Shown here piece by piece: positions 3,874 through 26,146 of a stretch of DNA of 64,000 nt (positions are counted from its first letter, which is position 1; every line of letters starts with the position of its first letter). The position numbers and the translations under genes were made by a program. The stretch is from the NCBI RefSeq assembly GCF_020662345.1, contig NZ_VMOA01000013.1:1-64000 (forward strand). The letters run 5' to 3'. The notes beneath the pieces are model-generated. The model was not told the DNA's origin. It saw only the letters and a list, made by a program, of their open reading frames with translations, and searched no databases. This DNA comes from Methylobacterium sp. W2. GTDB taxonomy: Bacteria > Pseudomonadota > Alphaproteobacteria > Rhizobiales > Beijerinckiaceae.

Positions 3874-5894
3874 TCCGCGTGAGGGAACGGCCGGCCACCG
3901 CCTCTGCGACGGGGCGCGCGCGACGGCTGGCGCTGCTGTGCGGCGCCTCTCTCGCCGGTTTGTGTCTCGTCACTCCGGTGGCGGCGCAGACCGAGAACCC
4001 GGACGAGGCGGCGCGGGCGCCCGCGATCATCGCCGCGCCCGGCAGTTCCGGCGCCGCCGGCATGGTCGACGAGAGCGCTCTGCGCTACTACGCATCGCAG
4101 AAGCAGACGGCACGGATGAAGGCCGAGGCCGCCCGGCTGAAACAGCTCTATCCCGGCTGGGTCGAGCCCACCGACCTCGACACCCTTCAGCCGAGCCCGC
4201 CGGAAGAGGCGCCGCTCTGGGACCTGTTCACCGCCGGGCGTTTCGACGACCTCGATGCGGCGATCGCGGCCCGGCGCGCGGCGGACCCGAACTGGCGCCC
4301 GTCCGACGAACTGTCGCGCAAGCTCCTGCGGGCCAGCTTCCGCAGCCGCCTGAAGGCCCTGACCTCCGCGCGCAAGACGGCGGACATCGTGGCCCTCTAC
4401 CGGGCCGACCCCTCCGCCCTCGATCCCAGCGACGTGGAGAGCTACTGGACGACGGCGGAGGCCCTGGCCTCCGAGGGGGGCACCGCCGAGGCCTTGGCCC
4501 TCTACAAGTCCGTGCTCGACACCAGCAACGACACCGGCGTGCGTCTCGCGACCATCCAGAAGGCGATGTCGACCCTGCCGATGGCCATGGCGGAGAAGCT
4601 CGTCGCCATGGGGCGCAGCGATGCCGAGGGAGGTTCCGAGTTCAAGGCGATTGCCAACGACATCACCCGCGCCCGCATCGTCGCCGATCTCCACGGCGCT
4701 CCGGCCCAGGAGCCGAGCCCGGCGGACATGGCCGCGTTCCAGACCTATGCCCGCGCCTCCGGCGATTCGAGCCAGACCGGATTGCTCGGCTGGTACACCT
4801 ACAACCACCGTCAGTTCCGGGCGGCCCTCGACTGGTTCAAGCTCGCGATCAGCCGTGGCGGCGATGCCATGATCGCCCACGGCCTCGCCCATACCCTGCG
4901 CGAACTCGGGATGCTGCGCGAGGCCGAAGAGGTCGCCTATGCGTGGCGGGACAAGTATGTCGGCAACAGCATCCTGTTCATCGACCTGATGGGCCGCAAG
5001 CTTACCCAGGCCAATCCGAGCTTCATCGACCTCGACCGGATCAACCGCTACGCCAAGGTGACCCTGGCCACGGCATCGGGGGAGGGGGCCGAGGCGCTGG
5101 GCTGGTACGCCTACAATTCCTGCCAGTTCGAGGCCGCCCTGGAGTGGTTTCAGCACGCGGTGGCCTGGCTCCCGAGCGAATCCGCCGTGACCGGCTACGC
5201 CCTGTCGCTGCAGCGCCTCAAGCGGAAGCCTGACTACCTGACCCTCGTCAACCGCTATGACGGCCTGTTCCCGAAGGTGGTGGACCTGCTGTTCCGCGAG
5301 GGACCGGCCGGACCGCCCCTGGCTTGCGCGGCCACCGCGGACGCCTCCCCGCCCCAGGGCGCGCGCCCGGCACCGGGCGCTGCTCCCGCCTCCGCCCCGG
5401 CCCCGGCTGCCCGGAACACCGCCGCCTATGGCCGGGTGCCCAAACCGGATTCGTCGGGGGACGGCCAGGCCAAGCCCCTGCCGGTCCAGCGCAGCGAGTT
5501 CCCCCTCGCTGTGCCGGCGGAGAATCCCCTGCGCTACGCTCCCCCGTCCCTGGCGCGGGTGGTCGCCGATCGGCAGGACGGGGCCTTCTTGGCCGAGCCG
5601 CCCGCATCGAAGACCATGCCGCTGGTGGCGCGCCGGGTCTCCGGAGCGGGGCCGATGCCCTATGAGAGCTATGGCTTCAACCTGATGCCGGGCTATGACG
5701 GTTCCGAGCGGCCCTCCACCCTGTCGGAGCCGGGCGAGGGCACCCTATGGCGAGCGCAGCAGGCCGCGCGAACCCGTGCCCCTCAGGAACGGGCGGCGTC
5801 GGAGACGGACCGCTTCACCTTGCCGAATTCGCAGGCCGTCAACCGCGGCTACGATAACCCCGACACCGCGCCGAGCTCGATGCAACGTCCATGA
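3858..5894 (+). CDS. Cellulose-operon TPR protein, BcsC-like but without a beta-barrel
   Basis: A 678-residue protein. The start at ATG 3858 lies inside the end of bcsZ and gives an Arg-rich N-terminus followed by a hydrophobic signal segment (residues 23-44, ending PVAAQ). The middle is helical repeat sequence. Two units are near copies: GWYTYNHRQFRAALDWF (about residue 307) and GWYAYNSCQFEAALEWF (about 413), so this is a TPR/Sel1-type solenoid. Residues about 490-530 are Pro/Ala-rich. BcsC of enterics joins TPRs to an outer-membrane porin of about 300 residues; no such barrel is visible here and the protein is about 500 residues shorter. It probably acts as a periplasmic scaffold for glucan export. 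The specific role is inferred from position. Confidence 0.75.
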   Translation: MSGTVIRVRERPATASATGRARRLALLCGASLAGLCLVTPVAAQTENPDEAARAPAIIAAPGSSGAAGMVDESALRYYASQKQTARMKAEAARLKQLYPGWVEPTDLDTLQPSPPEEAPLWDLFTAGRFDDLDAAIAARRAADPNWRPSDELSRKLLRASFRSRLKALTSARKTADIVALYRADPSALDPSDVESYWTTAEALASEGGTAEALALYKSVLDTSNDTGVRLATIQKAMSTLPMAMAEKLVAMGRSDAEGGSEFKAIANDITRARIVADLHGAPAQEPSPADMAAFQTYARASGDSSQTGLLGWYTYNHRQFRAALDWFKLAISRGGDAMIAHGLAHTLRELGMLREAEEVAYAWRDKYVGNSILFIDLMGRKLTQANPSFIDLDRINRYAKVTLATASGEGAEALGWYAYNSCQFEAALEWFQHAVAWLPSESAVTGYALSLQRLKRKPDYLTLVNRYDGLFPKVVDLLFREGPAGPPLACAATADASPPQGARPAPGAAPASAPAPAARNTAAYGRVPKPDSSGDGQAKPLPVQRSEFPLAVPAENPLRYAPPSLARVVADRQDGAFLAEPPASKTMPLVARRVSGAGPMPYESYGFNLMPGYDGSERPSTLSEPGEGTLWRAQQAARTRAPQERAASETDRFTLPNSQAVNRGYDNPDTAPSSMQRP

Positions 5895-6895
5895 TCCGCT
5901 CCAATCGGTCCGCAGCCGCCCCGCGATCCGGCGTTTTCGCCGCCATGATCTTGCTGCCGTTGGCATTCACGACGCAGGCGGCCCAGGCGGAGTCCGTGGT
6001 CGAGATCCCCGGCGCGGGCCGCGTCGCGGATGTGGCGCAGACCGCGTTTCGCGATGGCTACGCCCAGCGCGTCACCTATGCCGGGGGGGCGCGCAACTAC
6101 GCCGAGATCAGCGTTCGCAACGGCACCGATACGGGCGCTCGCTTCGGCCCGACCCTCTCCATGGGAAAGCCGACCCGTCTCGGTATCGCCGCGGAACTCC
6201 TGGCGCGATTCCCCGGGGAAAGCATGCGCGTCTCCACCGTGCCGAAGCGGAACGCCTACGGCCCCGTCGGCCTCGCGGTGGGCAGCAACTGCCTCTACGC
6301 TTGGCAATGGATCGACCTCGGTCCACGCTCCGGTGGGCGATCGGCTCCCGACAGCCTGTTCGGCGGCAGTACCGAGCGCGCGGCCTCCCTCCGGGTCAGC
6401 CTGTGCCGGACGGCCACCGCGACCCTGGCGGATCTCGTCTCCGGCATCGAACGCATGCACCTCTCCATCGGCGCCGGACGTGATGGCGGCGGCGCGCGCG
6501 TGTCGACGCGTCCAGCACCGAAGACGCGGCGCGAGCGGCCCTCGGCCCAGGCCGCGAAGGGGGTCGAGAAACCGGCGAAGGCGGATCCGCAGCCCCCGGG
6601 ATCCATGGAGCGGCCGAGCGCGCGAACCCAGAAGGCCGAGGACAACCGGCGCGCGCCACTCTCGCCGAGCCTGGAGCGCAGCGTCCCGACTGTTCCACAG
6701 CCCGCCGCCGGCACCGCCACCGTGCCCCTGCCGGCCGGTCCCGCCTCCGGGGCACCGCGGTACATTACTGATACCGCGCCTGCCCTCGCGCCTACGGTTC
6801 CCGTCGCCGCACCCAAACCTGCGCCCAGAAGCGTGGAGACGGAAGACCGTCTGTCCCCCGACCTGCCTCTGCGAGCCTATCGTCCGCCGCCGTAA
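5891..6895 (+). CDS. BcsN-like secreted cellulose biosynthesis protein
   Basis: A 334-residue protein starting with ATGA over the upstream stop. Residues 1-32 form a signal peptide ending TQAAQAE. Residues about 33-180 form a compact domain with QTAFRDGYAQRVTYAGG and GSNCLYAWQWIDL. That organisation resembles the rhizobial cellulose biosynthesis protein BcsN family (PF17038). From about residue 195 on it is a Pro/Ala/Arg-rich low-complexity tail, probably disordered or wall-spanning. It is the last gene of the bcs operon; an AT-rich gap of about 1 kb follows. The family call rests on context plus resemblance and could be wrong. The signal peptide and operon membership are secure. Confidence 0.55.
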   Translation: MIRSNRSAAAPRSGVFAAMILLPLAFTTQAAQAESVVEIPGAGRVADVAQTAFRDGYAQRVTYAGGARNYAEISVRNGTDTGARFGPTLSMGKPTRLGIAAELLARFPGESMRVSTVPKRNAYGPVGLAVGSNCLYAWQWIDLGPRSGGRSAPDSLFGGSTERAASLRVSLCRTATATLADLVSGIERMHLSIGAGRDGGGARVSTRPAPKTRRERPSAQAAKGVEKPAKADPQPPGSMERPSARTQKAEDNRRAPLSPSLERSVPTVPQPAAGTATVPLPAGPASGAPRYITDTAPALAPTVPVAAPKPAPRSVETEDRLSPDLPLRAYRPPP

Positions 6896-25816: not shown

Positions 25817-26146
25817 TGGCGTCCCCGGCAGGTCTCGAACCTGCGACCCCAGGTTTCATCCCACTTCGGCTTCCGCCGCCGCCCCGTGCCGGAGCGTTCG
25901 TGGTCTGGACTATCCCTTCGCCATGGATCGGTGGGGAATGACCCTTCGCGATCTTTAGGCGCCGCCCGTCTAGTCTCTACACCTTCCCCGGATGGCTCCG
26001 GGGCTTGGCTCGGGATCGGCCGGGCCAGCGCGCATGCGGGCCGTGGGCGTTCCCCGAATTTGAGCGGATCCGCCGCGTGGTTTCCCCTCGCGACGCCCAA
26101 TTGAAGTTTAGGAAACCTGTGCTCTGTCCAGCTGAGCTACGGAGAC
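25817..26146 (-). tRNA. tRNA-Arg(CCU) interrupted by a group I intron
   Basis: The 5' exon is 26146-26110 (37 nt): acceptor GTCTCCG, D-arm GCTC...GAGC, then CAGGT-TT-CCT, which ends in the anticodon. The 3' exon is 25856-25817 (40 nt): AA, anticodon-stem strand ACCTG, variable GGGTC, T-arm GCAGG-TTCGAGA-CCTGC, acceptor CGGGGAC, discriminator G and encoded CCA. Joined, they give a 77-nt tRNA in which GTCTCCG pairs with CGGGGAC (one G-U) and CAGGT pairs with ACCTG around loop TTCCTAA. The anticodon CCU reads AGG arginine codons. The intron lies between positions 36 and 37, the site known for the tRNA-Arg(CCU) intron of Agrobacterium. The host gene depends on splicing to be functional. Confidence 0.95.
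25857..26109 (-). other. Self-splicing group I intron in tRNA-Arg(CCU)
   Basis: 253 nt with no open reading frame of its own, so no homing endonuclease. The internal guide GGGAAACC (26086-26079) pairs with all eight bases of the 5' exon end GGTTTCCT, with the expected U-G wobble at the splice site (P1). All four core elements can be read on the minus strand: P, AATTCGGGGAAC (26060-26049); Q, ATCCCGAGCCAAG (26016-26004); R, GTGTAGAGACTAGACGGG (25982-25965); S, AAGGGATAGTCC (25918-25907). AGACTA of R and TAGTC of S form P7, the guanosine site. The last base is G (25857). Known relatives are the subgroup IC3 introns of bacterial tRNA genes. Self-splicing is inferred. Confidence 0.93.

Follow-up and report, generated by a model that had tools for sequence, protein, structure and literature searches.

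The tRNA-Arg(CCU) gene is an established host of bacterial group I introns. As described in PMC7717549, the Bartonella bacilliformis intron BbgpI self-splices in vitro, interrupts this same host tRNA and is flanked by the anticodon CCT as well, and there too the host tRNA was unannotated; the same paper cites a tRNA-Arg(CCU) group I intron of Agrobacterium tumefaciens. The IC3 subgroup is characterized in PMC11835236 by the absence of P5(a-d), and crystal structures of the IC3 intron of the Azoarcus tRNA-Ile(CAU) gene are cited in PMC3984707.

Here, we analyzed a stretch of 64,000 nucleotides of Methylobacterium sp. W2 (the window, used throughout for this stretch at its full length). It almost certainly contains a compact group I (IC3) ribozyme without an endonuclease, which interrupts the one tRNA-Arg(CCU) gene found, immediately behind its CCU anticodon, and which is spliced as proposed below. 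The intron belongs to the already known tRNA-Arg(CCU) group I intron family, to which it adds a genus-wide case. Likened by description to the introns of Agrobacterium and B. bacilliformis, it differs from them in that it resides in another genus, in which the full-length intron gene is present in 36 of the 36 genomes sampled (25 plus 11 more).

Boundaries, fold and detection of the intron

When introns were permitted, ARAGORN detected a tRNA-Arg(CCU) gene at c[25817,26146]; its intron measures 253 nt and separates positions 37 and 38, and the spliced tRNA has 77 bases. The intron coordinates given in the original prediction (25857–26109) are therefore exact, and its statement that the two halves join into a 77-nt cloverleaf is borne out by the same ARAGORN run; the acceptor stem of the cloverleaf contains one U.G pair. 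The core segments and the terminal G (25857) that it had claimed are also present in the sequence. The features of the gene are as follows:

25817–26146, minus strand: tRNA-Arg(CCU) gene with a group I intron (ARAGORN -i)
26110–26146, minus strand: 5' exon, 37 nt; its 3' end is the anticodon CCU and its final base U
25857–26109, minus strand: group IC3 intron, 253 nt
26096–26098, minus strand: predicted internal guide (IGS) GGG, pairing with the exon CCU at 26110–26112, with U.G at the splice site and a 2-bp P1 extension after it
26071–26095, minus strand: P2, with the GAAA loop L2 at 26081–26084; contains the octamer 26079–26086
26062–26067, minus strand: 5' strand of P3, with its partner inside 25962–25970; four pairs changed on both sides, 100% paired
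26011–26056, minus strand: P4 and P5, short and without a P5abc-like extension; P4 100% and P5 69% paired
25981–26009, minus strand: P6 and P6a; 100% and 89% paired, respectively
25971–25975, minus strand: 5' strand of P7, with its partner at 25908–25912; invariant in 27 of 27 introns
25920–25960, minus strand: P8; five pairs changed on both sides
25861–25903, minus strand: P9 with P9a; the P9b loop is of the GNRA type (alignment of 27)
25857, minus strand: omega-G, the terminal G of the intron (ARAGORN); invariant across the 27 aligned introns
25817–25856, minus strand: 3' exon, 40 nt, with CCA encoded

Covariation in the fold was examined with 27 of the 39 Arg(CCU) introns, aligned together with their exon ends. 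Over these 27 introns, the 62-pair structure (P1–P9) is 94.7% paired, versus 33–42% for slid controls; the derivation of the structure from the sequence of the window itself favors it in this comparison. The number of pairs changed on both sides is 23, as compared to 12.8 +/- 1.7 in column shuffles and 8–15 in the slid controls, and the number of doubly-changed cells is 107, as compared to 31.5 after shuffling, a value that none of 500 shuffles reached. The doubly-changed pairs are found in P2, P3, P6a, P8 and P9a. P3, P4, P6, P7 and P9 are all fully paired in the 27 introns, and the P3/P7 pseudoknot core is present; since P7 never varies, it receives no support from covariation. P5 is weak in the alignment, and in four P2 sequences several pairs are broken as aligned. 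When the sequence is folded singly, its minimum energy is unremarkable (z -1.19), with 13 of 100 shuffled sequences folding equally well. The core 18-mer at 25966–25983 has no second match in the genome at up to three mismatches.

The 5' exon ends in a U that pairs with a G of the internal guide, and the last base of the intron is a G, as in group I introns. The traits of the IC3 subgroup are also found: the intron is small, lacks P5abc (the spacing between the P4 strands is 38 nt) and lies in a tRNA anticodon loop. The boundaries and the covarying fold thus support the predicted identity of the element as an IC3-type group I intron in tRNA-Arg(CCU), and they confirm that this intron is real. 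It is barely conceivable that the insertion belongs to another class (group II, bulge-helix-bulge or IVS): no positive support for this was found beyond the fact that the Rfam match described below is sub-threshold, and the IC3 core, the terminal G, the U.G junction and the covariation all argue against it.

As had been predicted for a standard tRNA scan, ARAGORN run by default, i.e., without the intron option, found no tRNA in the window. An Rfam scan of the window at gathering scores found nothing either. With a relaxed threshold, the covariance model RF00028 gave a match of 26.0 bits (E 1.5e-4 in a search of 601 bases), and a search of the whole genome with this model found nothing at E<=10. 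Hence, the covariance-model match proposed as a check exists, but it falls under Rfam's cut-off, the gathering score of 50 bits, which is an operational limit and not a defining feature. Only 1 of 38 loci with such tRNA introns (25 from Methylobacterium, four from other family members and nine of the at least 120 from a public scan) passed this score, so that the family provides a concrete case of bacterial tRNA introns being overlooked by default tRNA and Rfam annotation. According to PMC6125680, it seemed unlikely that any one alignment, RF00028 for instance, could represent subtypes of such diverse structure.

The prediction that the intron lacks an endonuclease agrees with our analysis: the intron is only 253 nt long, and the six listed open reading frames of at least 60 aa overlapping it showed no Pfam match, which gives no sign of a mobile intron. 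The neighboring genes look ordinary and encode a Methyltransf_4 protein, which we take to be trmB-like, an S-adenosylmethionine synthetase, an HTH regulator and a GNAT protein. The HTH and synthetase genes are located beside the tRNA gene in 16 of the 25 congener loci (about 1.5 kb of flank).

Internal guide, proposed splicing and AGG decoding

The core 20-mer of the intron was found in at least 120 stretches of DNA, and among the matches listed, ARAGORN puts 108 of 121 in an intron-bearing tRNA; some of these placements are implausible (e.g., L045, L061 and L125) and some Leu hosts are misnamed. The guide was compared in 66 of the 108 placed introns, namely those that have a Leu, Arg or Ile exon end free of ambiguity (42 were dropped). 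Among the matches listed, exon CUU is accompanied by the triplet GAG in 42 of 43 Leu introns, exon CCU by GGG in all 14 Arg introns, and exon CAU by GUG in all 9 Ile introns. The middle base of the guide therefore tracks the host exon in 65 of these 66 introns from three tRNA hosts, the middle base being the part tested because the search pattern fixed both outer Gs. In the single exception (L046), a G and not a U comes before the GAG. All 66 introns among the matches listed have a GAAA motif around P2, as judged by a broad motif search of the first 62 intron bases. In the alignment, the guide pairing in P1 forms in 27 of 27 introns and is invariant apart from one extension pair, and UUGGG does not vary among them. 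Judged by this comparison across hosts, the guide is GGG at 26096–26098, directly before P2.

The original prediction had assigned the guide to the octamer GGGAAACC (26079–26086), pairing with all eight bases of the exon end, GGUUUCCU. The complementarity of GGUUUCCU to GGGAAACC is indeed present, with U.G at the junction, and every one of the eight pairs forms in 23–27 of the 27 aligned introns. However, these eight bases form the tip of P2 (GG-GAAA-CC). Among the matches listed, 15 of 43 Leu introns and 2 of 9 Ile introns, whose exon ends are CUU and CAU, carry the octamer as well, and it is present in 9 and missing in 5 of the 14 Arg introns; three beta/gamma Arg introns and L044 have other GAAA hairpins instead. 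It is thus very unlikely that the octamer acts as the guide, and we rejected it on the basis of the cross-host comparison.

With GGG as the guide, splicing would proceed as follows. In the transcript, the intron would fold into the P3-P8/P4-P6 core, with L2 presumably docking into P8 as in Azoarcus, and GGG would hold the exon end CCU, with the U.G marking the 5' splice site. Cleavage there would be made by an external guanosine, and the freed exon would then attack after the terminal G, so that the joined exons would yield a normal tRNA. We infer that splicing occurs in the cell through this two-step chemistry, and probably with little help from proteins.

The genome contains 46 recognized tRNA genes, those for Arg having the anticodons ACG, CCG, TCG and TCT; an intact tRNA-Arg(CCU) gene was not found among these 46 genes of the draft genome. 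Because the draft consists of 125 contigs, a second copy may for this strain lie in a gap. Allowing up to three mismatches, no intact gene was found in the 25 congeners, three of which are single-contig assemblies (G010, G019 and G024), or in four other intron-bearing genomes, and two intronless genomes used as controls gave theirs. Hence, an intact second tRNA-Arg(CCU) gene, which the original prediction had named as evidence against itself, was looked for and not found. Its further claim that AGG decoding would be left unexplained does not hold, because tRNA-Arg(UCU) is present in the genome. As is well established, tRNA-Arg(UCU) can read AGG through wobble.

As far as can be judged from the sequence, the intron is very probably functional and ordinary in kind. 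With tRNA-Arg(UCU) present, the cell can perhaps do without the CCU tRNA, which would fit an intron that is degenerate or protein-dependent, or a gene that is a pseudogene, with AGG being read by tRNA-Arg(UCU). However, the P7-bearing segments are invariant, the exons fold as a tRNA in 25 of 25 aligned congeners, and compensating changes keep the stems paired, which makes such a state of the gene highly improbable.

Relation to other IC3 introns and inheritance

Both the shared core 20-mer and an intron tree place the intron with other tRNA IC3 introns. The tree comprises 74 introns, including those of 13 of the 25 congeners; it excludes L060, L061, L111, L114 and all Leu introns at least 300 nt long, and long branches meet at its root. 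With 98/94 support, the intron clusters with the 20 other Arg(CCU) introns from alphaproteobacteria that were included, and the Arg(CCU) introns of the alphaproteobacteria share a single starred fork (98/100) with 36 of the 41 Leu introns in the tree. The proteobacterial tRNA-Leu(UAA) IC3 introns have the same core 20-mer but differ in exon and guide (CUU/GAG). The Ile(CAU)-type introns, to which the Azoarcus tRNA-Ile(CAU) intron presumably belongs as an IC3 intron, have the core 20-mer, the L2 GAAA motif and a guide triplet before P2 in common with the intron studied here; they differ from it in that they have GUG as the guide for CAU, where the present intron has GGG for CCU, and in that they form a separate tree group (100/97). 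The shape of the tree suggests that Arg(CCU) introns arose independently in the alpha and beta/gamma groups, through jumps out of Leu and Ile introns; we do not claim this, because an AU test does not reject a single clade (p 0.574; the tree constrained to a single clade scored higher).

The core 20-mer also occurs in tRNA genes from records labeled Bacteroidia, Chloroflexi, Acidobacteria, Kaiserbacteria, Elusimicrobia, Gracilibacteria and Omnitrophica (L038, L058, L067, L069, L097, L114 and L142; MAG labels as given). Locus L034 has two core matches less than 500 bases apart, at 5652–5671 (plus strand) and 6129–6148 (minus strand), of which just one was placed, in a tRNA-Leu. For the minus-strand match at L045, the implausible ARAGORN placement (122 nt, Arg GCG) may mean that the intron is longer or located elsewhere. 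A sporadic distribution and horizontal transmission were reportedly the subject, to go by the title, of a study by Paquin et al. in 1999. No title dealing with a group I intron in a Methylobacterium tRNA was found in our literature search, whose coverage took in a minority of subscription papers.

Genomes were searched for the intron by DNA searches and sequence patterns, and ARAGORN reads the gene of all 36 congeners as an intron-bearing tRNA-Arg(CCU). The 25 congeners form one clade in a quick rpoB tree (SH-aLRT 100), and their intron distances are correlated with their rpoB distances (Mantel r 0.82, a value that none of 9999 permutations reached). Because the intron distances follow rpoB and the congeners form one clade, we conclude that the intron has descended vertically within the genus. 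The predicted vertical inheritance therefore holds within Methylobacterium but was put too broadly: outside this genus, the distribution is patchy, and one genus, g48, carries the intron in a different tRNA allele.

Among 232 genomes of the family outside Methylobacterium, the Arg(CCU) intron was confirmed in 3 of the 14 g48 genomes and in G077, the sole genome of g54 in the sample, which gives a lower bound for the occurrence outside Methylobacterium; ten weaker matches (L209–L218) lie in tRNAs that ARAGORN names Leu, Phe, Ser or Thr. At the level of the order, a strict intron pattern was matched by 12 of 397 genomes (all 9 Methylobacterium genomes, G418, and two genomes of 1.5–1.6 Mb from one genus), which is a lower bound because 113 of the 397 match neither this pattern nor the strict pattern for an intact gene, which 272 match. 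G534, congeneric with G418, matches the intact pattern. The 17 sampled genomes of genus g111 (family f44) match neither pattern, which may reflect the limits of the patterns or another form of the tRNA. ARAGORN made no call for the intron-bearing gene of G418 (L282), a genome from another family. Its intron, taken directly from the sequence, was trimmed to 240 nt for inclusion in the intron tree, in which it nests with weak support (97/75) among the Methylobacterium introns, a possible case of transfer.

Two tRNA-Arg(CCU) alleles in genus g48

Of the 14 g48 genomes, 11 carry the tRNA-Arg(CCU) gene intact and 3 carry it with the intron, and no intact gene was found besides the latter in these three genomes. 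The intronless genes differ mutually at no more than 5 of 77 bases, seven being identical, and the three intron-bearing genes at no more than 4 of 77, whereas 13–18 of the 77 bases differ between the two alleles. In the rpoB tree, the intron-bearing G071 is sister to the intronless G138 (support 96).

The flanks of the three intron-bearing genes were compared with those of ten intronless loci as summed BLAST lengths out of 1450. The upstream flank of G267 gave 862–1206 with seven of the ten, 448 with G196, 67 with G209 and 0 with G138; that of G258 gave 225–1097 with all ten; and that of G071 gave 628 with G138, 346, 283 and 73 with three more and 0 with the remaining six. Downstream flanks matched only within the sets G138-G161-G222 and G258-G071. 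The allele distances and the flanks together indicate that the whole allele, and not the intron alone, differs at what seems to be one site in g48.

These data hint at replacement of the whole gene in g48, which we consider the most interesting lead of this analysis. Tentatively, and with somewhat less than even confidence, we propose that the endonuclease-free intron spreads as a cassette, i.e., that it moves along with the tRNA gene that carries it, the two taking the place of the resident gene at one chromosomal site, as opposed to the intron homing into that gene. Fast divergence of the g48 exons is a possible alternative, and an exchange may have run in either direction. With an intron that is present genus-wide in Methylobacterium and perhaps exchanged along with the tRNA allele in g48, the spread of endonuclease-free introns becomes testable. 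As a separate observation, the g48 tRNA-Arg(CCU) loci (L205–L208, L248–L260 and that of genome G109) share their upstream flank in part, and their downstream flanks are mostly unshared.
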